In this document: positions 2,085 to 18,862 of the stretch, piece by piece
Numbering within the stretch: position 1 is the first letter of the stretch
How the letters are laid out: every line of letters begins with the position of its first letter
DNA from: Aurantimonas coralicida
GTDB lineage: Bacteria > Pseudomonadota > Alphaproteobacteria > Rhizobiales > Rhizobiaceae
Length of the DNA: 38,294 nucleotides
Assembly: GCA_011050685.1 (NCBI GenBank)
Contig: DRFF01000095.1
Span: 1 to 38,294, forward strand
Direction: 5' to 3'
Program-made: the position numbers and the translations under genes
The notes under the pieces: generated by a model
The model's input: only the letters and a program-made list of their open reading frames with translations
Told to the model about the DNA's origin: nothing
The model's database searches: none

Positions 2085-2717
2085 CTACCTGACCGGCGTT
2101 GTCGTCACCACGAACACCTCTCCCCATGTGCCGTTTGGACCAAAGATCAGCTGGTCCAGCCGTAGGTTCATGGTTTCGCCCCCGATGTCGATAAAACCCA
2201 GCGCATCCTGCCACCCGCCAATCGTCGCGATTGCTTTGTCTTCGGAGTTCACACGGTCGAACTCTCCCAGAATTTTTCCTTGAACATCGATGAGGGTAGC
2301 TCCTCGGTAACCGCCGCCCCCAACCGCCAGCGCACGGAGTTTCGGCGGCTCGGCAGCGGCGAAACTGGTGACAGTCTCACCGAGTAGCTGTCGTGCGTCG
2401 TCCGCCTGCCCGTTCTGCAGCAGGCGACGAATTTCCTTCACCGCCTTCTCGGCGGCCGCGAACGGGCCCGGGTACGCCTCAACATATTTGCCTACCTGCA
2501 AGACACGGTGGGCTTCGTCGACTGCCATCATCCCTTTCGATCGGCGCCCCCCGGTCAACTCCGCAAGAGCCGTCTCCAGACGGTTTGAGATGCCATCCGT
2601 GAGGGCTCTCACAGGTCGGCTTTGCTCCGCTGGCTGTTGGGCCTCGGCGACGGTGACTGCCAGCGTGGCGGCAAGAAGGGCTGGAATAAAGCGACAAACC
2701 GTCTCACGACATGCCAT
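2085..2717 (-). CDS. Secreted protein with PRC-barrel-like C-terminus
   Basis: A 210-residue protein with an N-terminal signal peptide ending around VAEA-QQ (residue 26), hence probably periplasmic. Residues about 40-120 are helical and charged. The last about 80 residues (GATLIDVQGKILGEFD, then IGGWQDALGFIDIGG and LRLDQLIFG) follow the spacing of a PRC-barrel-like fold: a short beta segment, a glycine turn, a second beta segment. This family call is by eye only. Its start overlaps the end of the DUF4396-like gene by 14 bases, so the two are one leftward operon and may act together at the membrane. Function unknown. Confidence 0.7.
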   Translation of the reverse strand: MACRETVCRFIPALLAATLAVTVAEAQQPAEQSRPVRALTDGISNRLETALAELTGGRRSKGMMAVDEAHRVLQVGKYVEAYPGPFAAAEKAVKEIRRLLQNGQADDARQLLGETVTSFAAAEPPKLRALAVGGGGYRGATLIDVQGKILGEFDRVNSEDKAIATIGGWQDALGFIDIGGETMNLRLDQLIFGPNGTWGEVFVVTTTPVR

Positions 2718-3402
2718 GTTTCCATCCGATCCTGATGAGAATGTAGTTTACTGGCAAAGTCAGAACCGCACCGATCAGCAAACCGAAGCCGGCAAAACCC
2801 CAGAAAGCATAAGTGTCGGGCGGCGGCTGCTCCCCGACGACCCGTGGTGTGATCTGAGCCATCACCAGGCCCATGCCAATCATCACGGAGAGCATCGAAA
2901 AAAACTCCGCTCGGAAGGCTTTCCACACCGCGGCAAGGAAGCTGTTGTTCTGCATCAGGAATGCCCAGAGTTGGAAGATAAACCAGCCAAAGGCAAACCC
3001 AACCGCATATTCGATCCAGAATTCCTGCCAGAACGTCACGTCAGCCAGACGAAGGACGATCATCGCGGTGACGATTCCGAGCCCGTCTCCGCCGACGCAG
3101 TGGATGAGCGCTCCATTCGTCTTATAAAACATGCTCTGGACATACCGGTGGTGAGCTTGCTGCTTTTCCTCCTCGTTCATGCCGCCGATCCCGGCCGGGC
3201 GGCAGGTCCACCAGTAAAGGGCGAGACCGATGATAGAGAAGAAAAAGATGATGATCGGCCACGCCGCCTTAAGCGGGGGGTTTACCGCCGTATTGACCAC
3301 CAACATGTCATATAGCGCCCAGCCTGCTCCGGCCGCGCCCACCACATACCATGGGACAACAAACCAAGGGTCGGCGAGAAAAGCGAGAAATCCGAAGTCC
3401 AT
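2704..3402 (-). CDS. Multi-spanning membrane protein, DUF4396-like
   Basis: A 232-residue integral membrane protein with about six hydrophobic helices. In the middle it has the sequence LIHCVGGDGLG (residues 99-109) followed by FWQEFWIEYAVGFAFGW, which I associate with the DUF4396 family of uncharacterised membrane proteins. The His-Cys...Gly-Gly-Asp motif could bind a metal or cofactor, but nothing in the sequence proves it. It is the first gene of a two-gene leftward operon with the secreted PRC-barrel-like protein. The ATG at 3402 opens directly into a hydrophobic N-terminus, as expected. Confidence 0.75.
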   Translation of the reverse strand: MDFGFLAFLADPWFVVPWYVVGAAGAGWALYDMLVVNTAVNPPLKAAWPIIIFFFSIIGLALYWWTCRPAGIGGMNEEEKQQAHHRYVQSMFYKTNGALIHCVGGDGLGIVTAMIVLRLADVTFWQEFWIEYAVGFAFGWFIFQLWAFLMQNNSFLAAVWKAFRAEFFSMLSVMIGMGLVMAQITPRVVGEQPPPDTYAFWGFAGFGLLIGAVLTLPVNYILIRIGWKHGMS

Positions 3403-3516: not shown

Positions 3517-3867
3517 TTATAACTTCCACCGCGTTCGTTCTGGTAGGGGCGCGGGGTCCGCGCTTAGGCGCGGATAGGAAATCTGGGTCCGGCCAATCGA
3601 GGGCAAATACCCGTCTTCCCGCAATTTTCGGGGCGGCGCATGAGAAACATGACCGTCCCCGTATCGAATGAGATAGTCGCCCACCGAAGGAATGGCGCGA
3701 GTAAAAAAGCCTTCCCGAACGGCGATCCGACGGATTTTCCCGGTTTCGTCGACAGTCTTCACGGTTCTATCCGGGATCGAGAACGAGGAAATTCTGAAAA
3801 TCTCCACGATGGTGACGGGTTTCACCTCCGCCGACTGCCGCCGGAATTCGATGAGGTCCGCGTTCAA
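3517..3867 (-). CDS. Small hypothetical protein
   Basis: About 116 residues, no recognised domain and no membrane segment. A central stretch (PSVGDYLIRYGDGHVSHAPP) resembles small phage- or plasmid-type hypothetical proteins, but I cannot name a family. Start choice: the longest frame begins at a GTG (3876) that lies inside a GGGAGG ribosome site, so the TTG at 3867, eight bases after that site, is the better start. It is followed leftward by a gap and then the DUF4396-like gene. Confidence 0.55.
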   Translation of the reverse strand: MNADLIEFRRQSAEVKPVTIVEIFRISSFSIPDRTVKTVDETGKIRRIAVREGFFTRAIPSVGDYLIRYGDGHVSHAPPRKLREDGYLPSIGRTQISYPRLSADPAPLPERTRWKL

Positions 3868-4002
3868 TTTTTTCACCTCCCAATCGTTCGATGCTTTTGA
3901 CGCCTGAAGGGGCGTTATCCAAATCGTCAGGGAGGGAACGTATCCGCGGGGGATTCGGTTGACCCGTCGAGGGGATTGACGCCGATTATTTTCCTTGGCC
4001 GG

Positions 4003-4345
4003 CTACGGTGTGGTCATCTTTTGAGAAACACGCGGCAGCCCCCGCTGCCTCCAGGCCGGGCCAAGCGCCTCGCTGATCCAGATGTCGGCATTTTCGAGTG
4101 TTTCGAAGGAAAGAGGGTGGATCTCGGCGCACGGCCCAAAGCCGGCCTTGAGGACCAATGGGATTCCATCGCACCGGAAAGCGCACCAACACCGCGAGAA
4201 GCGCGCCCTTGTCAAAAACGAGACGTCCATCGGCAGCCTCCCGGCCAATTCCGGCTCGCACGCTCTGGAAGATAGGATCCTTCTGCAAGACTCCCATCGC
4301 CGACCCGCTGATGACGACCAGATACGGGTTCGCAGGAGGTTTCAT
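4003..4345 (-). pseudogene. Hypothetical companion of the Crp/Fnr gene, frameshifted
   Basis: The frame starting at 4345 reads MKPPANPYLVVISGSAMGVL and continues sensibly to RFPVRWNPI. The sensible continuation (VLKAGFGPCAEIHPLSFETL, then WISEALGPAWRQRGLP) then lies in another frame ending at 4003. Removing one G from the GG at about 4155-4165 joins the two into a protein of about 113 residues. Its ATG overlaps the TGA of the Crp/Fnr remnant (ATGA), so the two genes were translationally coupled. Family not recognised. Either a real pseudogene or a sequencing error. Confidence 0.55.
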
Positions 4346-5044
4346 TCAACAAGATTATGTGAATCGTCCGGCTGCCTCTGGCACAGATAGGCCGGATCGA
4401 ACTCCGCCCTTGCGCGCAGCCTTGCCCAGTCGTGGACGGTGAGGATACTTTGCCGAAAGCTGATGATGCCCGCTGCTCGCAAATCCTGCAGCACCCGATT
4501 GACATGCACGACCGTGAGGCCGGCGACGTCGGCGATGCCTTCCTGCATCAGTAGTAAAATCCGCGAGCTGGCATCCGCCGCGACGGTCGAGCAGTGCCGC
4601 AGGAACATTTCGCAGAGGAAATGAGCGATGCGTTGGTGGGCGGATCGGCGACCGAGATTGACGATCCACTGGCGCGAAATGGCGTCGCCCGACAAGGGAC
4701 GCCCACCAGAAGGCGCAGCCGATATCGGAATGAGCCATGATGGCGTCCATGACCGCTTGGCGTTTTGCCACCGCGATCTCGCAGTCCATGGCAGCCTCGA
4801 TGCTATAATCAAGCTGAGGAAAAAAATTTCGATGACAGATCGCAGATGTCGCTCGGCACGACGATGCCGAGGATCTGACGCTGGCCGCTCGGCACGGTCC
4901 GGTAGCGAAACGCCATACCTTCGACCATCGCGGTAATAAGAGACGGTGGATCTCCCTGGCGGAGTACGGCTCCATGCCAGCGCACCTCGATGACAGATGT
5001 GAACGCTCCTCGAAGCGCCTGTTCGCTCGCCGGCGTGAGCGGTC
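4342..5044 (-). pseudogene. Crp/Fnr-family transcription regulator, two frameshifts and IS-truncated start
   Basis: Three consecutive frames together spell one Crp/Fnr regulator. The N-terminal cyclic-nucleotide-type sensor domain (LTPASEQALRGAFTSVIEV through GIVVPSDICDL) is in the first. A linker helix (FPQLDYSIEAAMDCEIAVAK) is in the second. The third carries RQWIVNLGRRSAHQRIAHFL and the winged HTH (IADVAGLTVVHVNRVLQDLR). Dropping one T from the T7 run (about 4820-4827) and one G from a GGG (about 4692-4698) restores a single frame. The 5' end is replaced by the IS3-family left end at about 5045, so the original start codon is lost. No Cys cluster typical of Fnr is seen. Target genes unknown. 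Confidence 0.8.
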
Positions 5045-5105
5045 TGGAGTGCACCCCGTTTTGACCGGACAGTCGGCATAGCCGATAAGGCATAGGCATC
5101 CGCCT

Positions 5106-6170
5106 ATGAGTACGAGTATGTCGAAAGCTTCAGACGGCTCGTTTTCACGGGTCGAAGTCATCACTTCGGTGCAGCGCAGACGCCGTTGGTCAACAGCGGA
5201 AAAAGTTCGCCTCGTCGAGGAGGCAATGCAGCCTGGCATGAGCGTTTCCTACGTCGCCCGCCAGGCCGGCATCTCTCCCTCGCAACTCTTCGCCTGGAAG
5301 CGTCGGATGCTGGAAGGCGGCCACGCCGCCGTGCAGGCCGACGAGGACGTTGTCGGCACATCCCGTGTCCGCGATCTGGAAAAGCGTGTCCGCGATCTCG
5401 AGCGTCTGCTCGGCCGCAAGACCATGGAAGCGGAGATCCTCAAGGAAGCGCTGGACATCGCACGCCCAAAAAAAACGGCCGTTGCCCTTGAGGTCCTGGA
5501 GCGATCCAAGGGACGGTTCCCTGTGAAGATGGTGGCCGAGACGCTGAACGTCGCTCGTTCCCACATCAACGAGCGACGCGGCACCACGCCGAAGCCGCGA
5601 GGGCCGTATCACAAGGGCGAAGATGCCGAAGTCCTGCCGGCAATCCGGGCGATCGTCGATGCCCGGCCGACCTATGGCTATCGGCGCGTCACCGCGCTCG
5701 TGAACCGACAGCGTCGGGCTGAGGAGAGACCGGCGATCAACGCCAAGCGGGTCTTGCGGATCATGCGCCGCAACGGACTCACCCTCGAGCGCTCCACCGC
5801 ACGGCGCCCTGGCCGCACCCATGACGGCGTCGTCATCGCGCTACGCTCGAACGTGAGGTGGTGTTCGGATCATCAGGAAATCCATGCCCGAAACCGCGAG
5901 GTCGTCCGTGTCCTCTTCGTCCTGGACGCCTGCGATCGCGAGATCATCGCCTGGCTTGCCGCCGCCAATGCCGGCATCTCCGGCGAGATGGAACGCGATC
6001 TCATGGTCGCCGCTGTGGAACGACGGTTCGGCACGACGAAGATGCCGCATCCGGTGGAATGGCTCTCCGATAGAGCCTGCCCCGGACTTGATCCGGGGGC
6101 AGCGCCTATATCGCTGCGGACACGGCCGATACCGCGACGGCGCTTAACCTCAAGCAACTCTTCACGCCGG
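5106..6170 (+). pseudogene. IS3-family transposase (OrfA-OrfB), interrupted
   Basis: The OrfA part has an HTH (RRRWSTAEKVRLVEEAM, then VSYVARQAGISPSQLFAWKR) and a leucine-zipper stretch (RDLEKRVRDLERLL). An A8 run at 5468-5475 lies at the OrfA/OrfB junction, a typical slippery site. Here both parts are in one frame. OrfB shows the DDE core: Asp in RWCSD and Asp in LDACDREIIAW. The third acidic residue is lost. At about 6074 a small palindromic repeat replaces the expected SDNGSAY region and shifts the frame. The sense continues as AYIAADTADTATALNLKQLF in another frame and then stops being transposase. The nominal frame ends at 6221 inside foreign sequence. Confidence 0.85.
6077..6102. repeat. 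Palindromic repeat (REP-like) inside the transposase
   Basis: An almost perfect palindrome: GCCCCGGA, a short CTTGA spacer, then TCCGGGGGC. Hairpins built on CCCCGGACTTGATCCGGGG are, to my knowledge, common intergenic repeats in alphaproteobacteria. This one sits within coding sequence between the SD and AY codons of the transposase, apparently replacing a few bases of the original gene. Confidence 0.7.
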
Positions 6171-6174
6171 TGCG

Positions 6175-6303
6175 AAGATCATCAAGGCGGAACGGGGCTG
6201 GATCACAGTTCTCGATCGTGAGGCTTTCAAGTGCCTCGCCGGGAATTCCTAAGGGACCAGCGAGGCCGAGTATGAGCGGCTCCTCGGTCCTTTCCGCAGA
6301 TAA
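6175..6303 (+). pseudogene. Crp/Fnr-family C-terminal fragment with nonsense codon
   Basis: The frame reads IIKAERGWITVLDREAFKCL, then a TAA at 6250, then GTSEAEYERLLGPFRR and a stop at 6301. This is the typical wing and C-terminus of rhizobial Crp/Fnr regulators (RGxITVLDR ... EYDRLL). The TAA sits where the family usually has Tyr. The upstream part of the gene is missing because the truncated IS3 element joins it directly. It runs in the opposite direction from the Crp/Fnr remnant at 4342-5044 and so derives from a second gene. Confidence 0.7.
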
Positions 6304-6312
6304 CGCATGCGA

Positions 6313-6522
6313 TCAGACCGAGGGCTCGTGGAATTCCATCGCCACCTGACGACGCGACGCTGCCCTGATCAGCTCGAGCGCGACCTCGTCCTGGATCCAT
6401 CTGCCGGCCCCACCCTGGGTGGCCACAAGCCGCTGAGCCAGCCGGTTTACGTCGAGCACGGTTCCATTCGATTGGATCCGAACCACCGCCTCTTCGACGG
6501 CCTCTTGCATCGCATTTGACAT
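6313..6522 (-). CDS. Small hypothetical protein (69 aa)
   Basis: A short soluble protein starting MSNAMQEAVEEAVVRIQSNG and containing VLDVNRLAQRLVATQ. It has a clear ribosome site (AAGGGAG, about seven bases before the ATG at 6522), which supports it over the overlapping longer frame. Helix-rich, no membrane segment, no cysteines, family not recognised. It ends ten bases from the tail of the Crp/Fnr fragment and points away from the oxidase operon. Confidence 0.6.
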   Translation of the reverse strand: MSNAMQEAVEEAVVRIQSNGTVLDVNRLAQRLVATQGGAGRWIQDEVALELIRAASRRQVAMEFHEPSV

Positions 6523-6956
6523 GGTGTTCTCCCTTCACTGCGAAAGAAGCATTGCGCGAGCGTCGCCTGACGACATTAAAATAGGCTAAAGAACGGGCAT
6601 CCGATCAAAGGAGTCATGCCGGACCGCCTATCCAAGATGCGGTGCCAGCCAACAAATATTAATACGCAACCCTTGCAAAAGTGGTGGACGCCTGTTCGAT
6701 CGCACCTAATCTCGAACTCTTATTCCTCGAATGACGCGAGGCCAACAAGGGAAGAGAACGCAATGACCTCTTGGGTCCAATTCAACCCATTGCAACGCCA
6801 CAGCCTCATGCCGAAGATGGAAGCCGGGATCCGCCAAGGTGCTTTCTGATTAACCGCGCACAGGACGGGCGGCATGGGAAACCAGCACCGATGTCCTGGG
6901 TAGGCTTGACGTTCGATCTGCGCCGCGAAAAGGCGGATACAGTTGGGGGATGACTG
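6523..6956. other. Upstream region of the heme-copper operon, no gene seen
   Basis: About 430 bases that must hold the promoter of the operon starting at 6957. I looked for the Fnr/FixK palindrome (TTGAT-N4-ATCAA), usual before cbb3 genes, and did not find a good match. The nearest is TTGACGTTCGATC at about 6907, which is weak. Short frames here look random. A GGGGGA stretch directly before the GTG may act as ribosome site. Confidence 0.45.
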
Positions 6957-8462
6957 GTGGAAGTCGCGGAAAATCAGGGCACAGAATCGACTTTGGCAAC
7001 ATCTCCGGCGGGATTGATTGAACCCATCCACGACTATGCCGATCGCGCCGCAAAGATCTGGCTTTACAGTTCCGTCTTCTGGTTGATGTTCGTGACCCTG
7101 GTTGGTCTGACCATCGCAACCGAATTGATAACCCCGAACCTTTTCGGCGGCATCCCTTATCTGCTGTTCAGTCGAATCAGGCCGATCCATGTCAACGGCG
7201 TCATCTTCGCCTGGCTGACGATGATGTATTTCGGCGGCATGTTCTACGTCCTGCCGCGGCTTCTGGGGCTTCGGTCGATGTGGGGCGAAGGCGTGGCGGT
7301 CTGGATGGGCTGGGCCTGGAACCTGGCGCTCGCCGTGGGCTTTGTCGGGCTATCGATGGGCTTCACCCAGGGCCGGGAATATACCGAATTGATCTGGCCG
7401 GTGGATGTGGCGGTAATGATCGTGCTGCTGGTCAATATCTACATCATCCTGATGACGGTACTGAACCGGCGGGTGCGGCCGCTTTACGTGACCATATGGT
7501 GGAGTCTTGCCAGCCCGATCTGGCTGGCCGCCGATTATTTCATCGTCAACGTCATGTGGCGCCCCGGCACGCTTCTGGGCAACGGCGTGCCGGGGGCGCG
7601 GCTGTCCGGCGCGCTCGAGGACCCGCTGGCAGACGGGATGCTGAACTGGTGGGGCAACCATAACCTCTTCGGCCTGTGGCTGACGCCCATGATGGTCGGG
7701 CTGATGTATTATTTCGTGCCCAAGATTACGCGGACACCGCTTTACAGCCACACGCTGTCCCTAGTGTCATTCTGGGGCATCGCCTTCTTCTACACCGGGG
7801 TCGGACACCACCACCTGTTGCAGGCGCCGATCCCCGGCTGGCTCAAGACCTTCGCCACGGTCAACAGCATCATGCTGCTGGTGCCGGTCTTCGCCTTTGT
7901 CGGCAATATCTGGCTGACGATGCGCGGCAACTGGGACAAGTTCTTCATCAACATCCCGCTGCGCTTCATGCTGACCGGGTTCCTGTTCTACTTCCTGGTG
8001 AACGTGCAGGGGGCGTTCATGGCGGTGCCCGCGTTCAACAAGATGATCCATTTCACCAATTTCATCGTCGCCCACGCGCATCTGGCGCTTCTGGGCGCGT
8101 TCACCTTCTTCGGCATGGGGCTGATCGACTACATGGTGCCACAGATGGCGCGGCGACCGATCTACAGCTGCAAAATCTCGGAATGGACCTACTGGCTGCT
8201 GCTGACGGGGTTCTTCGGTTTCTTCTGGGTGCTGACCATCGCCAGCTTCCTGCAAGGCGAAAGCTGGGCGCAGGGTGAGCCGGAGGTCAATGTGCTGGCG
8301 ATGATCCGGCCGCAATATATTGGTAGGGCGGTGTTCGGGGCGCTGATCGTGTTCTCCACCTTCACCCTCGCATGGAACGTGGCCGCCACGCTGTTCAGCG
8401 ACACAAGTGCCGGCACCCGTCGCACCTTTCGCCGCGCCGTCGCCGTGGAACCGGGGGAGTGA
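6957..8462 (+). CDS. CcoN-like heme-copper oxidase catalytic subunit (noncanonical)
   Basis: Subunit I of a C-family (cbb3-like) heme-copper reductase: about 12 helices, 501 residues. By-eye alignment gives His78 and His375 as low-spin heme ligands, His373 for the high-spin heme, and His235 (WWGNHN), His285 and His286 (GHHHLL) for CuB. Tyr279, six residues before the His pair, matches the cross-linked Tyr of cbb3 oxidases, which favours O2 reduction. Gln351 stands exactly where canonical CcoN has a conserved Glu (22 residues before the HxH pair). The start is GTG at 6957. It is the first gene of a seven-gene operon, three bases before the cytochrome c gene. An NO reductase role is possible. 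No CcoQ or CcoGHI genes are nearby. Confidence 0.88.
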   Translation: MEVAENQGTESTLATSPAGLIEPIHDYADRAAKIWLYSSVFWLMFVTLVGLTIATELITPNLFGGIPYLLFSRIRPIHVNGVIFAWLTMMYFGGMFYVLPRLLGLRSMWGEGVAVWMGWAWNLALAVGFVGLSMGFTQGREYTELIWPVDVAVMIVLLVNIYIILMTVLNRRVRPLYVTIWWSLASPIWLAADYFIVNVMWRPGTLLGNGVPGARLSGALEDPLADGMLNWWGNHNLFGLWLTPMMVGLMYYFVPKITRTPLYSHTLSLVSFWGIAFFYTGVGHHHLLQAPIPGWLKTFATVNSIMLLVPVFAFVGNIWLTMRGNWDKFFINIPLRFMLTGFLFYFLVNVQGAFMAVPAFNKMIHFTNFIVAHAHLALLGAFTFFGMGLIDYMVPQMARRPIYSCKISEWTYWLLLTGFFGFFWVLTIASFLQGESWAQGEPEVNVLAMIRPQYIGRAVFGALIVFSTFTLAWNVAATLFSDTSAGTRRTFRRAVAVEPGE

Positions 8463-8465
8463 CGA

Positions 8466-9905
8466 ATGGACCACGCCAACCGCATTCCCGAGCATCCCCC
8501 CTATCCGGCCGAATTGCTCAAAACTCATCGCCGTCGCCGCATGCTGATGACCCCCGGCATGGTGGCGATCGGCGGGCTTCTGGCGTTCTTCACCGTCGTC
8601 TTTTCCGTGGTCGTTCTGCCGACCGCGACCTACAAGCCGCAGGTGTCGCCGAACTGGCTTCCGCTGAGCGACGCCCAGGTGGCGGGACGCGCGATCTATC
8701 TCGCCAATGGTTGCGTCTATTGCCATAGTGGCTTCAGTCGCCCGCAGGACGTCTTCGTGGGCTCATCGGCGCTCTATGCGCGGGCGTCACAGCCGGGCGA
8801 CTATACCGGCGCGAGCCAGAGCCCGAACACGCTCGGCAGCATCCGCACCGGTCCCGACATGGCCAACGAGGGCGGCACCCATCCCGATGGCTGGCACAGA
8901 TCGCACTACTGGAACCCGCGCAGCACTACGCCGATGTCGGTGATGCAGCGCTTCAACTTCCTCAGCGACGAGGAGACCGATGCGCTGATCGCCTATACCC
9001 AGAGCCAGGGCGGCAAGCTCGCGGCACTGCGCTATGCCGCGACGCGGACGGGGAACTACCTGATGCGGCTCAACGCCGGCAAGGCGGGTGTGGACGATCC
9101 CGACGCGCCGGTGGCTGACCTGGTGGCCGAACTGCGCCAATCAGGCGAATTCCGCGAGAGTGGCACGCCGATGGACAAGGCGCCGAGCGGCATGAGCTGG
9201 ATGGGCATCTGGCACATGAACAGTTTCTCGCGCTCCTACTGGCTGACCGACAATCCGCTTGAGGTGAACGCCGAGAACCTGATGCGCGGCAAGGCGACCT
9301 ATCTGCAACGCTGTTCGGGGTGTCACGGCGTCGAGGGTGACGGCAAGGGACCGGGGGCGGAGCGGCTGGACGTCAAGCCGTTCGACTTCACCAAGGCCAC
9401 TCTTGCCGACGACTCAGGTACATCGAGCGGGATGATGTATCATCGTATCCTGACTGCCGGGCCCGGCACGGCGATGGAGAATTTCGGCACCCGCCTGTCG
9501 GTCGCCGACATCTGGCGCACCGTGATGTTCCTGCGTACGATCCCGAACGGTGGGCTGGAGGAGACACTGCCGACCGTCGGGATGTACGCGCGATGGAAGC
9601 CGCCGGAGGGCCAGTTGCGCTACATGCAGGAAAACCCGATCGAGGAGATCTATGCCGAGCCGCTACCGACCGACGATCCTTTCATGCGGGCTGCGCATTG
9701 GATCGCGCCGGGCATGGCATCGAACGATCTGATCTATGTCGGGGGCAAGCTGCCGATCACCCTCGGCCGGCTGGCTGGTGTGATCCGATCGCAATACGAC
9801 CAGGCCGTCAAGACAGCCCATGCCGAGGCCACCGCTCGGGGCGAGGAGATTTCGTCGCTGGAGGATCTGCAAAGCACCAAGGGACTTGTCTTCTATGGAC
9901 CCTGA
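8466..9905 (+). CDS. Membrane-anchored diheme cytochrome c, CcoO-CcoP-like fusion
   Basis: 479 residues with one N-terminal anchor (about 30-52) and two c-type heme sites, CVYCH (83-87) and CSGCH (283-287). The first half follows CcoO: NGCVYCHSGFSRPQD, RTGPDM, GWHRSHYWNPR, and SVMQRF with the likely axial Met. The second half is a class I cytochrome c domain (GEGDGKGPGA-like stretch, likely Met ligand in TAMENF) in the role of CcoP. A C-terminal extension of about 110 residues has no known counterpart. It would carry electrons from soluble cytochromes in the periplasm to the CcoN-like subunit. Its stop overlaps the next start by 11 bases. Confidence 0.88.
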   Translation: MDHANRIPEHPPYPAELLKTHRRRRMLMTPGMVAIGGLLAFFTVVFSVVVLPTATYKPQVSPNWLPLSDAQVAGRAIYLANGCVYCHSGFSRPQDVFVGSSALYARASQPGDYTGASQSPNTLGSIRTGPDMANEGGTHPDGWHRSHYWNPRSTTPMSVMQRFNFLSDEETDALIAYTQSQGGKLAALRYAATRTGNYLMRLNAGKAGVDDPDAPVADLVAELRQSGEFRESGTPMDKAPSGMSWMGIWHMNSFSRSYWLTDNPLEVNAENLMRGKATYLQRCSGCHGVEGDGKGPGAERLDVKPFDFTKATLADDSGTSSGMMYHRILTAGPGTAMENFGTRLSVADIWRTVMFLRTIPNGGLEETLPTVGMYARWKPPEGQLRYMQENPIEEIYAEPLPTDDPFMRAAHWIAPGMASNDLIYVGGKLPITLGRLAGVIRSQYDQAVKTAHAEATARGEEISSLEDLQSTKGLVFYGP

Positions 9906-10212
9906 CAGAAAATGGCATGATGTCGGCACCATCTGGCGCGGCCTGACCATGCTGGCTGCAGCGACGCCGCCCGTTCTGGCAAGCGGTGCTGCCTGGGCCA
10001 GCGCCTCGCCGGAGGGCGCTGAATTCGTCATGGCCGACTGGATGCTGTTGTCGTTCTTGTCCTTCGCCGGCGCCGCGCTGCTGGTCTTTCTGATCGCGGT
10101 GCGGCGCGGGATGTTCGCCGGCATGGAGGACGCGAAATATCACCTGCTGTCGGTCAAGGAGCCGGACTATTACACGCCCGACTGGGCAAAGGAGGACGCA
10201 GATGCCCCCTAG
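9895..10212 (+). CDS. CcoS-like small membrane protein
   Basis: 105 residues, starting at the ATG at 9895 that overlaps the end of the cytochrome gene. The segment WMLLSFLSFAGAALLVFLIA then RRGMFAGMEDAKYHLL copies the layout of CcoS (one helix, R-x-G-x-[YF]-[DA]-x-[LM]-E, then a short tail). CcoS is needed for cofactor insertion into cbb3 oxidases. Unlike typical CcoS (about 50-60 residues) it carries an extra N-terminal hydrophobic segment (about 13-38) that may be a signal peptide or second helix. It lies among structural genes, so it may instead be a subunit. Confidence 0.6.
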   Translation: MDPDRKWHDVGTIWRGLTMLAAATPPVLASGAAWASASPEGAEFVMADWMLLSFLSFAGAALLVFLIAVRRGMFAGMEDAKYHLLSVKEPDYYTPDWAKEDADAP

Positions 10213-10549
10213 CGGCAGTGATCCCGAAACGGTGGCGGCGATCCATCGCTACATCTACGCGCAATACATGGACCGGATCCCGCTCGACCGCACCGACATC
10301 CTCTGGCGCGGACCGATCTACGAGGTCTTGTTCGCGATCACGCTGATCGTGTTCTTCTTTGCCGTCGTGTTCCTGATGCGCCCGACCTTTCATCAGCGCG
10401 CCGCGATCACGGAACTGACCTCGTTCGCGGGCCAGTTGACCGAGCGCGCCGGCGAATTGCGCCTGTTCTCGGCGCTGAGCTGGCTCGCCGTGGTCGCCTA
10501 TGCGGCCTATTTCGCCGTCTCCGCCGTCCTTTACGGCATCGTCTACTAG
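10202..10549 (+). CDS. Two-helix membrane protein of the oxidase operon
   Basis: 115 residues with two hydrophobic helices (about 39-58 and 90-112) joined by a polar segment. The N-terminal about 35 residues are soluble. No cofactor motif and no known family. It overlaps the CcoS-like gene by 11 bases and precedes the next gene by ten, so it belongs to the operon. Its size suits an accessory subunit that packs against the catalytic core, which is inference only. Confidence 0.75.
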   Translation: MPPSGSDPETVAAIHRYIYAQYMDRIPLDRTDILWRGPIYEVLFAITLIVFFFAVVFLMRPTFHQRAAITELTSFAGQLTERAGELRLFSALSWLAVVAYAAYFAVSAVLYGIVY

Positions 10550-10559
10550 GAGCGCGCGG

Positions 10560-10871
10560 ATGGTCGCCCGAGGACATTCCTATTGCTACATCACCACCGC
10601 CACGGTGCCCCGCGACATGTGGGCGCGGGTGCAACCGCTGCTCGAATCGTGGAAATCCGTGCTGCAGGATCTGCCGGGCTTCGTGACCAGCGATGTAATG
10701 GCGCGACGCACTGAAAGCGGCGATCTTCGGATGCATGTTCGCGTGACGTGGCTCTACCGCGAACAGTTGGAGGAATTCCTGGAAAGCCGCTGGGAGACCG
10801 AACGACTTATCGCCTCGACAAGCATCGAGCTTCGCGGCATCCAGTCGGAAGCCTTCGAGAATTTCATCTGA
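10560..10871 (+). CDS. Small soluble protein, ABM-like dimeric alpha-beta barrel
   Basis: 103 residues, no signal peptide, so cytoplasmic. I chose the ATG at 10560, preceded by TAGGAGCG, over a longer frame that overlaps the previous gene. The pattern of a beta strand (YCYITTATV), a helix with WARVQPLLESWKSVL, LPGF, then GDLRMHVRVTWLYREQLEEF is that of antibiotic-biosynthesis-monooxygenase-like ferredoxin folds. Such proteins include heme-handling enzymes, which would fit the operon, but no catalytic residue can be assigned. Confidence 0.6.
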   Translation: MVARGHSYCYITTATVPRDMWARVQPLLESWKSVLQDLPGFVTSDVMARRTESGDLRMHVRVTWLYREQLEEFLESRWETERLIASTSIELRGIQSEAFENFI

Positions 10872-10889
10872 CTGTGCGGGAAGCCTGCT

Positions 10890-11096
10890 ATGACAGAGAC
10901 CCATACGCGAACAACATGTGGCGTCGACGAAGTCCTGTCCTACAGCGACGACGAGGTCGTGAGTTCGTTTGAGGCCGAGGACAGGCGTTGGACCCTGAGG
11001 GCGCAGACGATCGACTGGCTGATCCTCGCCACCATGATCGTGGTGTCGCTCGGCTACCATCTGACAATCTTCGCGCTGCAGCCGGGACTGCGCTAG
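10890..11096 (+). CDS. Single-helix small membrane protein
   Basis: 68 residues with a polar, acidic N-terminus (DEVLSYSDDEVVSSFEAEDR) and one C-terminal helix (WLILATMIVVSLGYHLTIFA). Its stop lies three bases before the start of the large three-repeat membrane protein, so the two are translated together. It may be a small subunit or assembly factor for that protein. No family recognised. There is one Cys near the N-terminus and a His inside the helix. Confidence 0.65.
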   Translation: MTETHTRTTCGVDEVLSYSDDEVVSSFEAEDRRWTLRAQTIDWLILATMIVVSLGYHLTIFALQPGLR

Positions 11097-11099
11097 GCG

Positions 11100-13070
11100 A
11101 TGCGGGTCGAGGAGGTTTCCAACCTCGATGCGCTACTTTTCGTGACGGTTCTTGTTGCGATATCCGCCATTATCCTGCGGCTGGTTCCGCGGCGCGCCGA
11201 CATGCCGAAACTCTTGGCGGTCTTCAGCGAGACCGAGATCGCGGCGCACGACCGTGCCTTGCCGAAATACATTCTGACCTCGGCGGCGGCGCTCGTCCTC
11301 GGCCCGCTGCATCTTGCGGTGAAGTCGGTTCCGGCCATTTCGACCTGGCTTGAAGGTGCCGGGCGGGGCGGGCATCTGGCCGCCAACATCGCCTACAGTC
11401 ACATGATCATCGTCATGGGCGGCACCATCGCCGTGACCGGCCTGACCTGGTATGCCCTGCCGCGCGTGCTGCGCCGCCCGCTCTACAGCGAGACGCTGGC
11501 GCAGTTGGCTTTCTGGGGCACGGTGCTCGGGGCCGGCGGGTTCTATCTTGTCAATCTGTTGGGCGGTGTGGCGATGAGCGTTATGGTCCACGGCGGAATG
11601 ACCGATGCCGCCGCCTCCGACGCGATCGGGCTCTGGCGGTCCCTGCCCACGGCGGCGGCGGCCAGCCTGATGGGCGTCGGCTACTGGATTTTCGTCGTCA
11701 ACGTGCTCGTCACCTGCTGGCTTAGCCGACGCGTCGCCGGGCCGCAACCGCTTGGCCATCTGTCGAAATTCTTCGTGATCGGCAGTGTCGGACTCCTCGT
11801 CGGCACGGTCCAGGGCGTGCTTCAGGTGGTGCCGGAGAACGAGGACTGGCTGGCCGCCGCCGGGCAGGCCGGGCGCTATATCGACCCGATTTCGCACGCC
11901 CATGTCAACCTTCTGACAGGAATGATGATGCTGGTCGCGGGGCTGGTGTTCTTCCTTATCGGCAGCCGCGACGGGGCCGAGGCCGGCCGGCGCGCGGCAA
12001 ACCTCGTGTTCTGGACGCTGGGGCCCGGATCGATCGCGCTCTATCTTGCGTTTTTGACACTTGGGATGGCCGAGGGAGGACTGATTGTCGATCAGGGTTT
12101 GACCTTTCCGCAGGCGGTCGCGCGAATGGGGGCGTGGCAAGCTGTTCCCTTGCTGGGCTCTGCCGCCGTCGTGCTGTCGGGGCTCTGGCTGCTGCTTGCG
12201 ACGATCCTGCGCCACTTCGTGCGCGGATTCCGCCAGACGCCGGGAACCGCGCTGATCTGTCTTGGCGCAGCGGTGCTGCTGGTCGGCACGTTGCAGGGCG
12301 GCGTGCAGGCCCTGCCGGCGGTCAAGATGTGGATGGTTGCGGCGGGGGCGGGCGGCGAGGCTGTCGCGCGGACCCATGCGCAAACCAACATGCTGGGCGG
12401 CGTGCTGACGATCCTGACCGGTATGGCGCTGATGATCGGCCGACCGATGCTGGGCGCGGCGCCGCCGCCCCGGCTCGGGCTGCGGATGGCCGTGCTGATG
12501 GGGGCGGGCGTGGGACTCTACTATACGGCCTCGATGCTGGCCGCGATCGTTTCAGGTCAGGCCATCCGGGCCGGCGTGGATGCCGGGGACGGGTCGTTGC
12601 CGCTCGCCGCCGGAGCGGTGATTGCCGGCGCATTGCTCTATGCTGCCGCGGCTGCGCTCTTGCTGCGCTTCGTTTGGGCCATGACGGCGGATTACCGCAA
12701 AACGTCGTGGCTCGCGCTGAAAACTGAGCTATCGCGCCACGATGCGCCGGAAAAACCGTGGCGCGGTCGCATTCCTTCGGCCGCGCTGCTGCTTCCCGAG
12801 GCTGCCGGGGCGCTGACCGGCTTTCCCGGACTGGGATGGATCCTGAGCGGACGGGCCGCGGTCGGCGTGCCGCTGATGTTCGGCGGTCCGGCGCTGGCCT
12901 GGGCGGTGCTGCCACTCGCCCTTTCGCCCTACGGCCCAATCGCCCGCCCCGACACCGTGTTCGTGACGATCGAGAGTTATCTCGTCATCTCCGCCGCGAT
13001 TTCGGTTCTGACGCTATGGACCAGCATTGCAATGCGTCGGCTCCGCAGAGATGCTGACAATCAGGGGTGA
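11100..13070 (+). CDS. Heme-copper-subunit-I-like protein with three four-helix repeats
   Basis: 656 residues, about 15 helices. Three repeats of about 160 residues are readable. Each has a helix ending in LVLGPLHLAV / LLVGTVQGVL / LLVGTLQGGV (about 65, 232, 393), a loop with W..(A)GxGG, then a helix with histidine: AYSHM (His101), ISHAHV (His266, His268), RTHAQ (His426). Two more helices follow (FWGTVLGAGGFYL / FWTLGPGSIALYL / LMGAGVGLYYTA). This mirrors the three-arc architecture of heme-copper subunit I, and LPRVLRRPLYS after the first His helix resembles the neighbour CcoN-like protein. The His set differs from a catalytic subunit: helix 10 has HAQ instead of HxH. It probably binds heme. 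An extra N-terminal helix and two or three C-terminal ones complete it. Confidence 0.8.
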   Translation: MRVEEVSNLDALLFVTVLVAISAIILRLVPRRADMPKLLAVFSETEIAAHDRALPKYILTSAAALVLGPLHLAVKSVPAISTWLEGAGRGGHLAANIAYSHMIIVMGGTIAVTGLTWYALPRVLRRPLYSETLAQLAFWGTVLGAGGFYLVNLLGGVAMSVMVHGGMTDAAASDAIGLWRSLPTAAAASLMGVGYWIFVVNVLVTCWLSRRVAGPQPLGHLSKFFVIGSVGLLVGTVQGVLQVVPENEDWLAAAGQAGRYIDPISHAHVNLLTGMMMLVAGLVFFLIGSRDGAEAGRRAANLVFWTLGPGSIALYLAFLTLGMAEGGLIVDQGLTFPQAVARMGAWQAVPLLGSAAVVLSGLWLLLATILRHFVRGFRQTPGTALICLGAAVLLVGTLQGGVQALPAVKMWMVAAGAGGEAVARTHAQTNMLGGVLTILTGMALMIGRPMLGAAPPPRLGLRMAVLMGAGVGLYYTASMLAAIVSGQAIRAGVDAGDGSLPLAAGAVIAGALLYAAAAALLLRFVWAMTADYRKTSWLALKTELSRHDAPEKPWRGRIPSAALLLPEAAGALTGFPGLGWILSGRAAVGVPLMFGGPALAWAVLPLALSPYGPIARPDTVFVTIESYLVISAAISVLTLWTSIAMRRLRRDADNQG

Positions 13071-13114: not shown

Positions 13115-13139
13115 CTTAAGGCCCCCTTAAGTTTCGTTT
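13115..13139 (+). terminator. Possible terminator of the oxidase operon
   Basis: CTTAAGG (13115-13121) pairs with CCTTAAG (13125-13131) around a CCC loop and is followed by TTTCGTTT. The stem is short and AT-rich, so this is a weak candidate. It lies 45 bases after the last oxidase gene and before the cytochrome c4-like gene, where an operon end would be expected. Confidence 0.35.
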
Positions 13140-13248: not shown

Positions 13249-14022
13249 TTGACGATCATCTCCTGCCTGGCACGAGCTTTCGAGGCTCATGACGTGCGCT
13301 CTGTAGGGTCGACAATTTATCCCCAGGGACATGCCGGCGTCCGGTGGCGGGGAAAAGCTGTGGGCGCTGCCGCACTGGTTCTGTCCTTTGCTCAGAGCGG
13401 CCCGCTGTTCGCCGCCGGAGGATCTGACATCGCAGCGAATGGCACGGCTGGTGGAGCGCCAGCCTGTGCGAGCTGTCATGGTCAGAGCGGAGAGGGCCAG
13501 CCGGAAGGGCCATTTCCCAGACTTGCCGGGATCAACGCCACCTATCTGGCAAGCCAATTGCAGGATTTTGCCGACGGTAAGCGCCAGAGCGATATCATGG
13601 GGTCGATCGCGCAGTCGCTCACCGAGGAAGAGATAGCGGCGGTCGCCAAGTACTATGCGGAAAAATCGGCGCCGAAAGCGAATGAGCCCACGCCCCTCGA
13701 TCCGGCGGTGGTCTCGGCCGGTGGGAAGCTTGCCATGCGCGGTGACTGGTCACGCGGCCTCCCGGGCTGTTCACAATGCCATGGGCCCGGCGGTGCGGGT
13801 GTCGGGTCGACCTTTCCCAAGCTTTCCGGGCAGTCGATGGAGTATATTGCCGGACAATTGAGGGCTTGGCAGGACAAGCAGCGCACTAACGATCCGCTGG
13901 ACCTCATGGCCGGCGTCGCATCCAAACTGGACGATGCGGAGGTACAGGCGGTCGCTTCTTACTATGCCAGTCTTCCGGTCGAGCAGGCGCCGCCCTCTCA
14001 GTCCTCGGAGGGGAAACAATGA
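13249..14022 (+). CDS. tsdB: Diheme cytochrome c4-like protein, probable TsdB
   Basis: 257 residues with two CxxCH sites (CASCH 73-77, CSQCH 174-178), each in a half of about 100 residues with FPRLAG.NATYLASQL or FPKLSGQSMEYIAGQL, the layout of cytochrome c4. A signal peptide ends around LFAA-GGS. The frame starts at TTG (13249) six bases after GGGAG. A GTG at 13294 is an alternative that leaves a more usual leader. Its end overlaps the TsdA start by four bases. In known systems TsdB, a c4-type protein, takes electrons from TsdA and can pass them to a cbb3 oxidase. Here an unusual oxidase operon lies just upstream. Confidence 0.82.
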   Translation: MTIISCLARAFEAHDVRSVGSTIYPQGHAGVRWRGKAVGAAALVLSFAQSGPLFAAGGSDIAANGTAGGAPACASCHGQSGEGQPEGPFPRLAGINATYLASQLQDFADGKRQSDIMGSIAQSLTEEEIAAVAKYYAEKSAPKANEPTPLDPAVVSAGGKLAMRGDWSRGLPGCSQCHGPGGAGVGSTFPKLSGQSMEYIAGQLRAWQDKQRTNDPLDLMAGVASKLDDAEVQAVASYYASLPVEQAPPSQSSEGKQ

Positions 14023-15164
14023 GCGGTCCCGAGATGAACACGAAAACCTGGGGGATGGGGGTCATGGTGATCGGCCTTTCCGGGCTCGTGGGCTATTCTC
14101 TCTCCCAAGGACGGGAGAGATACCCGGGTGCGCCCCAAAACAAGGTGATTCCATCGCCGAGCGCGGCCTTACCATCTGTTCCGGCATCGGCCGACCAGGC
14201 AGATGCGAGGACGCCCGGCACGCAGACTAAAACCGGCGATGCAACTGACGCGCGATCCGGTCGAAAGCCGCCCGACAGTAGGGTATCCGATGCCGGTTCG
14301 AATGCCACGACGGCGGTTTCCAAGGCCGGCGCAGTGGCGCCCAAGTCCTTTACGCCTCCGCCCGAGGACGCCATTCCGGACAACGATTTTGGCAGGATGG
14401 TCCTCCGAGGAGAAGCGATCTTCGACAGAACGGTGGAGAACGCCGGACAGTTCGTCGGTAATGATCTGAGCTGCTCGAACTGCCACATCGACAAGGGGCG
14501 ACTCGCTGGATCAGCGCCGCTCTGGGCCGCCTATGTGATGTATCCGGCCTATCGGTCCAAGAATGAGCATGTGAACACGTTCGAAGAGCGTCTGCAGGGC
14601 TGCTTCAAATACAGCATGAATGGCAAGGCGCCGCCGCCGGGGGACGAGGTGCTGGTTGCCCTGCAAAGCTATGCCTATTTCCTGGCCAAGGGCGCACCGA
14701 CGGGCGTCGACTTGCCGGGCCGCGGCTATCCGGATCTGCCGAAGACGGACAATCTCGACCGGAACAACGGGCGCAGCGTTTTCGTGCAGAAATGCTCGAT
14801 CTGCCACGGCGACGACGGCGCTGGCCAGAAGTCAGCGGATGGCACCATGGTGTTTCCGCCACTGTGGGGCTCGCGGTCCTACAATTGGGGAGCCGGCATG
14901 AGTACGATTACCAATGCCGCTAAGTTCATCAAGGCGAATATGCCGCTCGGTATGGGCAACAGCCTATCAGACAAGGAGGCATGGGACGTTGCCGCCTATA
15001 TCGACAGCCAGGAAAGGCCGCAGGATCCACGCTTCACGGGATCAGTTGAAGAGACTCGCTCGCAGTATCACAACACGCCTATGAGCATGTATGGCAAAGT
15101 CGTGGACGGGCAGACACTCGGCGAAACATCGCCTTCTTCTGGATTGCAGGCCCCTCCTCAATAG
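14019..15164 (+). CDS. tsdA: TsdA-type thiosulfate dehydrogenase, membrane-anchored
   Basis: Catalyses thiosulfate to tetrathionate (or the reverse) with two c-type hemes. Sites are CSNCH (152-156) and CSICH (259-263). Cys195 in QGCFKYSMNGK matches the unusual Cys ligand of the active-site heme in TsdA, which is the main reason for the call. The last half has Met residues (NMPLGMG, about 308-312) suited to ligate heme 2. Unlike standard TsdA, the N-terminus looks like an uncleaved anchor (12-28) followed by a Pro/Ala/Ser/Thr-rich linker up to about 118, so the enzyme may be tethered on the periplasmic face. Start overlaps tsdB (ATGA). Confidence 0.85.
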   Translation: MSGPEMNTKTWGMGVMVIGLSGLVGYSLSQGRERYPGAPQNKVIPSPSAALPSVPASADQADARTPGTQTKTGDATDARSGRKPPDSRVSDAGSNATTAVSKAGAVAPKSFTPPPEDAIPDNDFGRMVLRGEAIFDRTVENAGQFVGNDLSCSNCHIDKGRLAGSAPLWAAYVMYPAYRSKNEHVNTFEERLQGCFKYSMNGKAPPPGDEVLVALQSYAYFLAKGAPTGVDLPGRGYPDLPKTDNLDRNNGRSVFVQKCSICHGDDGAGQKSADGTMVFPPLWGSRSYNWGAGMSTITNAAKFIKANMPLGMGNSLSDKEAWDVAAYIDSQERPQDPRFTGSVEETRSQYHNTPMSMYGKVVDGQTLGETSPSSGLQAPPQ

Positions 15165-16544: not shown

Positions 16545-16605
16545 AGCTCCTGTCAGGGAACGATTGGAGTGTCCTTCAAGGCTTGGTTCTGCTAGAATCA
16601 CCGTC

Positions 16606-18216
16606 ATGGAAACGGCCTTCGCGAACCTGCAGTCAGACTCTGCCACACTGCGTGCGATCATCCTCGCGCAGGCCGCCGAGTTCGCTACCCGCGAAGCCGA
16701 GCTGCGCTCCCACGGTACACTGATAGAGAGGCTGAAGGCGCAACTGGCGGCGCTCAGACGCGCTCGGTTCGGCGCTTCCTCCGAGAAGCTCGATCGCATC
16801 GCCGACCAGCTCGAGCTGGCGCTGGAGGAGATCGAGGCCAACCAGGCGCAGGACGAACCGCAAGGAACTGACGCCGAAGCGACGGCGGGATCGAGGACGC
16901 CGCGTTCAAAGCCCTCGCGCCGGCCCTTGCCCGATCATCTGCCGCGCTACGAGGTACGGCACGAGGCGCCATGCGCCTGCGCGGAGTGCGGCGGCACGCG
17001 CTTCTTGAAGGACGGCGAGGACGTCACTGAGATCTTGGACTATGTTCCGGCCTCGTTCCGGGTGGTGCGGCACGTGCGGCCACGCCTCGTCTGCCGGGAC
17101 TGTGACGCCATCATTCAGGCGGAACGCCCAAGCCTTCCGATCGAACGTGGCAAGCCAGGACCGGGGCTTCTTGCCCATGTGCTGGTCTCCAAGTACGCGG
17201 ACCATCTGCCGCTTTACCGCCAATCACGCATCTACGAGCGCGAGGGCGTGGAGTTGTCGCGCTCGACGCTGGCCGACTGGGTGGGGCGCAGCGCCGATCT
17301 CCTGGCGCCGCTGGTGGAGGCGGTGCGCGCTCATGTTCTGTCAGGGGACCGTCTGCACGGTGACGACACACCGGTTCCAGTGCTGGAGCCCGGTAAGGGC
17401 CGTACGAAGCAGGGGCGGCTCTGGGCCTATGTACGCGACGGCCGTCCCTGCGGCTCCACTGATCCTCCGGCGGTCGCCTATCGCTACAGTCCCGACCGCA
17501 AGGGGCACCACCCTCGCGAGCATCTGGCGTCATTTGCGGGGATCCTGCATGCCGACGGCTATGCCGGCTTTGCCGAACTCTACCGGGCACCGCTGGTCGG
17601 CGACGGTGGCCGGGTCGAATCGCGGATTGCCGAGGCGGCTTGCTGGGCACATGCACGTCGCAAGTTCTTCGACCTGACGGCGTCCGGACCCGCGCCCGTG
17701 GCGGGCGAAGCCCTGAAGCGCATCGGTGAGCTCTACGAGATCGAACGTTCCGTGCGCGGCCAGTCCGCGACTGAGCGGCTGAAGGTGCGCCAGGCACAGG
17801 CCGCTCCCAAGGTTGAGGCGTTGCGGTCCTATCTTGAGCGTGAACTGGCGCGCCTGTCGGGCAAGAGTCCGACGGCGGGTGCGATCCGCTACGCGCTATC
17901 TCGTTGGCCAGCGCTGTGCCGTTATCTCGGCGACGGACGGATCGAGATCGACAACAATGCCGCCGAACGCGCCATCCGCCCGGTCACTCTGGGACGTAAG
18001 AACTGGCTGTTCGCGGGTTCGGACGAAGGAGGCGTGCGAGCTGCCGGGATCATGACGCTGATCGAGACGGCCAAGCTGAACGGCCTCGACCCGGAGGCCT
18101 GGCTGCGCGACGTGATCGCCCGGATCCACGACCATCCGGCGCGCTGGATCGACGAACTCCTGCCTTGGAATGCCCAACCCGATGTCGCGACTTCCACCGC
18201 GCCTGCGCACGCTTGA
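16606..18216 (+). CDS. tnpC: IS66 TnpC transposase
   Basis: 536 residues from the ATG at 16606 (an upstream in-frame ATG at 16564 lies in the tnpB-tnpC spacer and is less likely). It has an N-terminal coiled coil ([20 protein letters not shown]), a zinc-finger-like segment (CACAECGG ... CRDC) and the DDE core: [24 protein letters not shown], and the region [20 protein letters not shown]. Full length for the family. The passenger gene starts inside its last 47 bases. Confidence 0.94.
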
Positions 18217-18862
18217 TCGCCTGCTCCTCGACCTGCCTGATGACGGCGGACCGATGCTTCTCAGCGAGCTCGACGGCTATCTCGCCGGACTTCTCGTCTG
18301 CCCGGACCTCCTCATGCCCGGTGAATGGTTGCCGAAGGTCTGGAGCCGCTACGACGACGAGGAAAGCCAGCCAGTGTTCGAGGACATGAACCATGTCCAG
18401 GTGACGATCGGGGCGGTCATGGAGCACTATAACGCCCTTGCCAAAGCGTTCGCCGGCCAAAGGCCGCGCTACGTGCCGGTTCTCGACGACGACCCAGTCT
18501 CCAACGAGATCCTCTGGGAGATGTGGGCCGACGGCTTCGGCCGAGCCGTCGACCTGAGGCCGCAGTGCTGGAAAGCCATCGCGAAGAGCGGCGACGAGGA
18601 CGCCAAGGTCGCGCTCGCCGGACTTCTCCATCTCGTCACCATCGCTCGCGATGAAGGCGCCATGTCCAAGGACGACATCAAGGCCTTTGACGAGACCGCG
18701 CCCGTTCTCATTCCACGTTGGGTTCTCGCACTCAATGCCTGGCGCCTCGCCAACGCCACCGGCGCGCCCGCACCGTCGCCGACCTTCGGTAAAGTCGGCC
18801 GCAACGATCCCTGCCCCTGCGGTTCCGGCAAGAAGTACAAGAAATGCTGCGGCCTCAATTGA
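18170..18862 (+). CDS. UPF0149/YecA-like protein with SEC-C motif (IS66 passenger)
   Basis: 230 residues. The N-terminal three quarters resemble UPF0149/YecA proteins (helical, acidic, [20 protein letters not shown]). The C-terminus is a complete SEC-C zinc-binding motif ([19 protein letters not shown]) like the one at the end of SecA. It overlaps tnpC by 47 bases and ends 10 bases before the IS66 right inverted repeat, so it is part of the mobile element. SEC-C domains bind zinc and can contact ribosomes or SecB. What the protein does for the IS is unknown; a role in expression or host adaptation is speculation. Confidence 0.88.

Follow-up and report, generated by a model that had tools for sequence, protein, structure and literature searches.

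A rare seven-gene operon of Aurantimonas coralicida pairing a Gln-type CcoN-like protein with a subunit-I-like protein of three tandem four-helix units

The stretch of Aurantimonas coralicida DNA analysed here (38,294 nt; assembly GCA_011050685.1, contig DRFF01000095.1, positions 1 to 38,294 of the forward strand; hereafter the window) contains a tight operon of seven plus-strand open reading frames (ORFs) at 6957-13070. On balance, we read this operon as encoding a C-family cytochrome c oxidase with Gln in place of a conserved Glu, which probably acts together with accessory proteins of its own, among them a protein of 656 amino acids (aa) as a non-catalytic second membrane arm. This second subunit-I-like protein is the most surprising part of the operon. 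A preliminary description of the window had reported seven genes with gaps of 3 to 18 bases and two 11-base overlaps, and the ORF coordinates agree (gaps of 3, 10, 18 and 3 bases). Its broader claim, of two subunit-I-like proteins within a heme-copper gene set of unusual make-up, is borne out as well, as the genes are conserved as a block and the catalytic subunit lies outside ordinary CcoN. The genes, and the three units of the 656-aa protein, are as follows.

6957..8462, + strand: 501-aa CcoN-like catalytic subunit; GTG start; all His ligands and Tyr279 present; Gln351 where the canonical residue is Glu
8466..9905, + strand: 479-aa membrane-anchored diheme protein; CcoO/FixO domain and one cytochrome c domain; motifs CVYCH and CSGCH
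9895..10212, + strand: small protein of the third gene; signal-like N-end (by eye) and one transmembrane helix; CcoS resemblance by eye only
10202..10549, + strand: 115-aa two-helix membrane protein; matches no known family
10560..10871, + strand: soluble protein of the fifth gene; predicted ABM/IsdG-like fold
10890..11096, + strand: 68-aa one-helix protein; matches no known family
11100..13070, + strand: 656-aa protein; three tandem four-helix units related to the C-terminal third of CcoN; His-His pair for CuB absent
11232..11735, + strand: unit 1 of the 656-aa protein, residues ~45-212
11745..12227, + strand: unit 2, residues ~216-376; motif SHAHVN
12237..12689, + strand: unit 3, residues ~380-530; motif THAQTN; the most diverged unit

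Results

The seven genes are conserved as a block and are rare

When genome contigs were scanned with the 656-aa protein, two of the four pattern matches encoded a relative: a Paracoccaceae metagenome-assembled genome (MAG), BWSM_148 (locus L038, 67% identity), and the Paracoccus MAG UBA889 (locus L039, 66%). All seven genes occur in the same order at both loci. The 501-aa protein is 89% identical to its counterpart in L038 and 87 and 95% identical to that in L039, the latter in two pieces flanking a run of 349 N within the gene. For the remaining proteins, the identities to L038 and L039 are 79 and 81% (479-aa protein), 74 and 87% (third gene, earlier labelled CcoS-like), 65 and 77% (two-helix protein), 60 and 70% (ABM protein) and 64 and 68% (one-helix protein). 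The ratio of nonsynonymous to synonymous substitution rates (dN/dS) was 0.06-0.29 in 12 of 13 gene comparisons and saturated in the 13th, the 501-aa gene entering by its L038 comparison only. As judged from these ratios and identities, the operon genes are under purifying selection and the conservation of the block far exceeds chance. The co-occurrence of the 501-aa and 656-aa genes that the preliminary description proposed to look for is found at both further loci, with all seven genes in order; neither of the two observations that it named as refuting its reading was made: the 501-aa protein does not fall inside ordinary CcoN, and its partners are conserved with it.

Outside the operon, the available flanks of the window and of the two loci have no DNA similarity at E 1e-5, except for a DUF4396 gene in L038. 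These comparisons indicate that the operon is real and occurs in different genomic surroundings. At E <= 1e-3, the 656-aa protein was matched in one of 60 relatives (the own genome) and in three of 385 genomes of the class, at full length in the own genome only; the two extra matches in the class (E 5e-4 and 7e-4; ~98 and ~67 residues) were taken as chance or partial. The 501-aa protein was matched at E <= 1e-90 in a single genome of 394 of the family, again its own; the three samples overlap. Plasmid records yielded no match to the 656-aa protein, and the CcoN-like matches listed there (15 of 535 records listed) were at most 35% identical. By these searches, the seven-gene set is rare.

The 501-aa protein belongs with C-family oxygen reductases outside canonical CcoN

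The CcoN-like character ascribed earlier to the 501-aa protein is upheld by a PF00115 match of 252 bits. The protein has the marks of the C family: it matches PF00115 and carries the helix-VII Tyr along with the His residues that ligate hemes b and b3 and CuB. These six His ligands and the active-site Tyr are invariant across all 59 aligned CcoN rows, the window protein included (ligand numbering follows P. stutzeri CcoN). It departs from canonical cbb3 in its score against the ccoN equivalog model TIGR00780 (256 bits, far under the 583-bit cut-off) and in its position in the tree. A further difference lies at a position presumably near heme b3, which is Glu in 18 of 18 canonical rows and Gln in all 41 non-canonical rows, namely two of the window type, four of a rhizobial-type group (L045, L050, L051, L057), four grouped with L049, one from Paraburkholderia fungorum (L052), and 30 of a group handled here as f209 and kin. 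We infer that the residue replaced is the Glu called mandatory in cbb3 enzymes.

In a tree of 34 of the 59 rows (L052 was dropped for its long branch, together with 24 f209-type rows), a 100/100 branch separates the window pair from the 18 canonical rows, among which are the two canonical ccoN genes of the own genome (contigs C66 and C69). The L039 sequence was omitted from the CcoN trees on account of the run of N in its gene. The link between the window pair and the f209 group is weak (85/81), and a quick tree of all 59 rows likewise keeps the canonical rows together with the window pair outside. The comparison of the 501-aa protein with CcoN by phylogeny, suggested in the preliminary description, thus places it, on the sequences aligned, outside canonical CcoN. 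That the enzyme is an ordinary cbb3 oxidase followed by unrelated genes would agree with its PF00115 and FixO domains, and an approximately unbiased (AU) test did not reject a branch joining the canonical rows with the window pair on one side (p 0.194); in view of the low equivalog score, the 100/100 separation, the Gln for Glu and the retention of all seven genes as a block, we regard this reading as extremely improbable.

The preliminary description had also left room for a nitric oxide (NO) reductase. Several NO reductase (NOR) families originated within the heme-copper superfamily, and the loss of the Glu near heme b3 to Gln would be compatible with such an activity. NO reductases lack the active-site Tyr, however, and have an FeB-type ligand set, whereas the 501-aa protein retains the Tyr and the three CuB His and so fails as a cNOR or qNOR. 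Among solved structures searched with phmmer, five CcoN chains headed the ranking (E 2e-59 to 1e-46), with NorB at its end (9e-5) as the weakest PDB match. An NO reductase is thus highly improbable, and the 501-aa protein is most likely, by its residues and similarity, a cytochrome c-fed oxygen reductase of the C family and of Gln type.

A diheme subunit and four small partners accompany the catalytic subunit

The second gene encodes what had been described as a fused CcoO-CcoP-like protein, and its FixO and cytochrome c domains and two CxxCH motifs confirm this. The four small proteins of the operon have no Pfam match at E 0.1, and they showed no homology to two FixS-like ORFs or to eight protein families from f209 operons. 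The third gene had been called CcoS-like; the label is not supported, as no FixS match is present in Pfam or NCBIfam and the hhalign probabilities against two FixS-like sets, both small (5 and 2 sequences), were only 6 and 1.7. A blaOXY match of the same gene was discarded (15.6 bits against a cut-off of 600). The fifth gene is, by structure prediction, a protein of the ABM ferredoxin-like fold: its model has a predicted local distance difference test score (pLDDT) of 84, and the 50 Foldseek matches listed include many ABM proteins and IsdG/IsdI (best E 5e-6). The ABM-like identity proposed before is accordingly backed by the predicted fold and finds no family match in Pfam.

ORF, Pfam and NCBIfam scans of the operon revealed no CcoQ, no separate diheme CcoP and no ccoGHIS. 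The absence of CcoQ and of the assembly genes stated earlier agrees with this for the operon. Elsewhere in the genome, contig C66 carries canonical ccoN, FixO, FixG-type and P-type ATPase genes and contig C69 carries ccoN, FixO and FixP-type genes. With canonical ccoN, FixG-type and P-type ATPase genes elsewhere, assembly genes missing from the operon need not be missing from the cell, and oxidase assembly could be shared with the canonical sets.

The 656-aa protein consists of three tandem four-helix units

The 656-aa protein matches PF00115 only in part (30.3 bits, cut-off 34.8); a DUF6131 match was dropped (14.8 bits, cut-off 25). By blast, in a small database, its residues 33-205 and 220-382 both align to one stand-alone 219-aa protein (29 and 31% identity; E 1e-19 and 5e-19), and residues 393-487 align to it weakly (E 0.004). 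The units also match one another, with hhalign probabilities of 96.5% (1 against 2), 96.8% (2 against 3) and ~70% (1 against 3). Against the third arc of CcoN (helices IX-XII), unit 1 reaches 95%, unit 2 88% and unit 3 only 4.5%; against the family of the 219-aa protein (30 sequences), the values are 99.0, 99.3 and 94.4%, and the third CcoN arc itself reaches 99.0%. On this evidence, the 656-aa protein is made up of three tandem four-helix units, each related both to the final third of CcoN and to a family of stand-alone four-helix proteins. Of the earlier designation of this protein as heme-copper-like, the relation to subunit I stands, but the protein appears to be a tandem triplicate rather than a second CcoN.

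Foldseek searches with the AlphaFold model gave 25 matches at E <= 0.001, all of them to subunit I of cbb3, NorB or ba3 enzymes (best E 2e-6), with template modelling (TM) scores by target of 0.62-0.64 (cbb3) and 0.68-0.69 (NorB) on a model of pLDDT 51. No His-His pair was found in the sequence, and therefore the protein would lack a conventional CuB site. Eight His residues in or near the units (71, 92, 101, 164, 220, 266, 268, 426) and His547 after them are kept in all three orthologues, so that heme binding is possible. We do not pair these residues with single CcoN ligands, as the pairing shifts by about one position between alignments.

The threefold repeat and the origin of the triplicate

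A pseudo-threefold shape of oxidase subunit I has been known from structures since the 1990s. Among the matches listed in searches of open-licence PMC articles, none gave an account of a sequence triplication of heme-copper subunit I. When the three arcs of CcoN were compared as 59-row profiles, of which 30 rows belong to one close group (f209 and kin), they matched in register (A-C 97.1%, B-C 94.8%, A-B 82.6%). The controls were clean: no probability above 15% arose in 56 comparisons with reversed profiles, and for each of seven pairs none of 60 block shuffles of the columns scored as high as the true profiles. A common core, running from a His motif through a YY.VPR-like stretch to RP.YS and FW, recurs in most of the 11 units compared and is least evident in unit 3.

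Were the 656-aa protein simply a worn-down subunit I of the ordinary kind, i.e. a CcoN paralogue minus CuB, units 1, 2 and 3 would be expected to pair with arcs A, B and C. The Foldseek matches to full-length subunit I would suit such a protein, and each unit-arc pairing on its own was not rejected (p-AU 0.118, 0.074 and 0.235). The three pairings taken jointly were nevertheless rejected (log-likelihood lower by 51, p-AU 0.00013), and again with another seed (0.00027) and under LG+C10 with a shortened tree search (0.0032). An L-INS-i realignment left the likelihood almost unchanged and is for that reason no independent alignment; its value is that of a second seed and a second model. For each unit, the score with the 219-aa family (114, 128 and 52) also exceeds that with every arc of CcoN (no more than 54, 41 and 22). 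In a tree of 53 units (10 of the 30 sequences of the 219-aa family, 10 of the 59 CcoN with three arcs each, and all four of a 170-aa type), the nine 656-aa units and the ten 219-aa proteins fall on one side of a 99/99 branch and the 30 CcoN arcs and four 170-aa proteins on the other, on a tree that carries a warning of long branches meeting. We therefore consider a worn-down subunit I improbable; the 656-aa protein is best explained, from these alignments, as an independent tandem triplicate of the four-helix unit.

The stand-alone proteins resemble the 656-aa protein in their four-helix unit and differ from it in having one unit rather than three. When 299 genomes of the phylum were searched with the 219-aa protein, 97 gave a match at E <= 1e-6, with CcoN itself accounting for many of the matches. 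In the f209 loci read, a second single-unit type (~170 aa) is encoded close to ccoN. Among the matches listed, the 170-aa type shares a contig with a Gln-type ccoN in 14 of 26 genomes having both (1.8-5.6 kb apart), and the 219-aa type does so in 9 of 31 (11-20 kb apart). DUF2871 (PF11070) matches the 170-aa type (L040 6274-6786) at 24.0 bits, under its cut-off of 27.4 (E 5e-5). This family, weakly related to the four-helix heme-copper unit, has a sub-cut-off match in Haloferax volcanii; the own genome had none, and 14 controls gave a single sub-cut-off match. We suggest, tentatively and at somewhat less than an even chance, that the heme-copper core fold arose by triplication of a single-gene four-helix unit that still exists, and that the 656-aa protein would be a second, independent triplication forming a subunit-I-like bundle, a non-catalytic partner in a new oxidase complex.

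Genomic context

Other features of the window near the operon are listed below.

13115..13131, strand not assigned: terminator-like perfect inverted repeat of 7 bp, lying between operon and tsdB
13249..14022, + strand: TsdB-like diheme cytochrome c; adjoins the operon in the window genome only
14019..15164, + strand: TsdA-like diheme protein; SoxA/TsdA domain at 30.9 bits (cut-off 27); adjoins the operon in the window genome only
2704..3402, - strand: DUF4396 membrane protein; 68% protein identity to its counterpart immediately upstream of the L038 operon (L038 5040-5738)

The TsdB-TsdA-like pair (13249-15164) lies downstream of the operon, with the inverted repeat in between; sites of that kind are in little excess in the region (10 against 6.0 in shuffles, standard deviation 2.6). 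The DUF4396 gene is common to two of the three loci and, in the window, lies on the strand opposite to the operon. No FNR-type box was found upstream of the operon (14 matches in the whole window, 8.7 expected by chance), nor a sigma-70-like promoter, the sole one in the region sitting elsewhere. An apparently broken Crp/Fnr-type regulator lies at 4342-5239 (- strand), with a cNMP-binding piece (22.1 bits, sub-cut-off) in the ORF 4809-5099 and a helix-turn-helix piece in the ORF 4342-5079. Transposase genes flank the oxidase and tsd genes (5106-6221, by eye; 16564-18216 and 18651-19781, IS66 and DDE/DUF772 by Pfam), and a Rieske protein with a TAT-type N-end is encoded at 786-1337.

Discussion

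Comparison with known systems places the window enzyme close to, and yet apart from, the cbb3 oxidases. It has in common with canonical cbb3 (ccoNOQP, ccoGHIS) the CcoN fold, the heme and CuB ligands, the Tyr and the CcoO domain, and differs from it in the Gln for Glu, the fusion of CcoO to one cytochrome c domain, the lack of any visible CcoQ or assembly gene in the operon, and the new partners. The 'distal' cbb3 subtree reportedly stems from Ducluzeau et al. in 2008. The window enzyme is a likely candidate for this distal kind. In published work, 'proximal' and 'distal' cbb3 subtrees are distinguished (PMC7029218, PMC8788666, PMC10734462), the distal enzymes lying, like the window enzyme, outside the proximal group and differing from it in subunit composition; in Sideroxydans, distal ccoN/ccoO is upregulated on thiosulfate (PMC8788666). 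We found no cbb3 variant of the composition seen here in open-licence PMC articles.

Two plasmid loci share single traits with the operon. On pSymA of Sinorhizobium meliloti (L050), a ccoN with Gln at the Glu site is directly followed by a fused ccoO-cytochrome c gene (554 aa), as in the window; the identity is 35%, SCO, TauE and P-type ATPase genes lie nearby, and the 15-kb locus has no relative of the 656-aa protein beyond a weak match to its own CcoN. On a Paraburkholderia fungorum plasmid (L052), a Gln-type ccoN lies, as in the window, beside tsdBA-like genes (TsdA 58% identical), but CcoN is only 28% identical, the accessory block is absent and tsdBA stands upstream of ccoN rather than downstream. 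There, tsdB- and tsdA-like genes are followed by ccoN and by a ccoO with further CxxCH motifs (3785-8263, NZ_CP099644.1), and DsrE and YeeE genes lie near. At another locus, L057 (2080-5184, - strand), a 1034-aa ORF fuses a Gln-type CcoN to a CcoO-cytochrome c part. The f209 loci read encode single-unit proteins, and the triple-unit 656-aa protein, the ABM protein and the two-helix partner of the window were not found there.

For the oxidase proposed here, we envisage the following series of steps. A periplasmic cytochrome c, which in this genome may be TsdB, would supply electrons that pass through the two hemes c of the 479-aa subunit to heme b and then to the b3-CuB site of the 501-aa subunit, where O2 would be reduced to water with the Tyr as redox partner. 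TsdB has been suggested in print as a possible donor to cbb3 (PMC9237845), and since tsdBA adjoins the operon here and is absent at L038 and L039, thiosulfate is a plausible electron source in this organism and not a fixed part of the gene set. The role that we infer for the 656-aa protein is at the side of the catalytic subunit, most likely as a second membrane arm that would bind heme b or hold the complex together; it could fold like a whole subunit I without a CuB site. The ABM protein and the small helices would likely be partners in assembly or heme handling.

A different division of labour is conceivable, in which the 656-aa protein is non-structural and forms, with the ABM protein, a module that delivers heme or copper, assists assembly and then leaves. 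The predicted ABM fold is common to the heme-binding IsdG/IsdI, the operon showed no gene of CcoG, CcoH or CcoI type, and the 656-aa protein evolves faster than the catalytic subunit, all of which would suit such a module. On the other side, the genome carries FixG-type and P-type ATPase genes at another site and the units retain His-bearing helix motifs resembling subunit I, and we hold this alternative to be unlikely, while giving it real weight.

Several observations count against an oxidase with the 656-aa protein as its second membrane arm, or against the triplication origin proposed for the core fold. Gene linkage as seen in these genomes does not establish one complex. The AlphaFold model of the 656-aa protein is poor (predicted TM score 0.59, with the low pLDDT given above), its Foldseek TM scores by query are 0.47-0.49, i.e. 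under 0.5, and the protein changes ~3.6 times faster than the 501-aa protein (dN 0.277 against 0.077 to L038). With the 18 canonical rows alone, only the B-C match of the CcoN arcs remains (88%), A-B and A-C falling to 1 and 2%. Among the matches listed, the single-unit gene and ccoN lie on different contigs in 12 of 26 (170-aa type) and 22 of 31 (219-aa type) f209-type genomes. No tsdBA lies near the operon in L038 or L039, whose genomes gave one weak partial match to it, in one of the two.

On the catalytic side, the operon contributes a C-family oxidase of Gln type, belonging to a group that lacks the Glu described as mandatory for cbb3 enzymes. Its gene set is compact, lies in surroundings that differ between genomes and could be transferred by cloning to a Paracoccus-like host. 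The tandem triplicate, the stand-alone units and the repeat in the CcoN profile together make an origin by triplication testable by structure and oligomer studies, and this rare gene set could thereby help to reveal how the oxidase fold arose.

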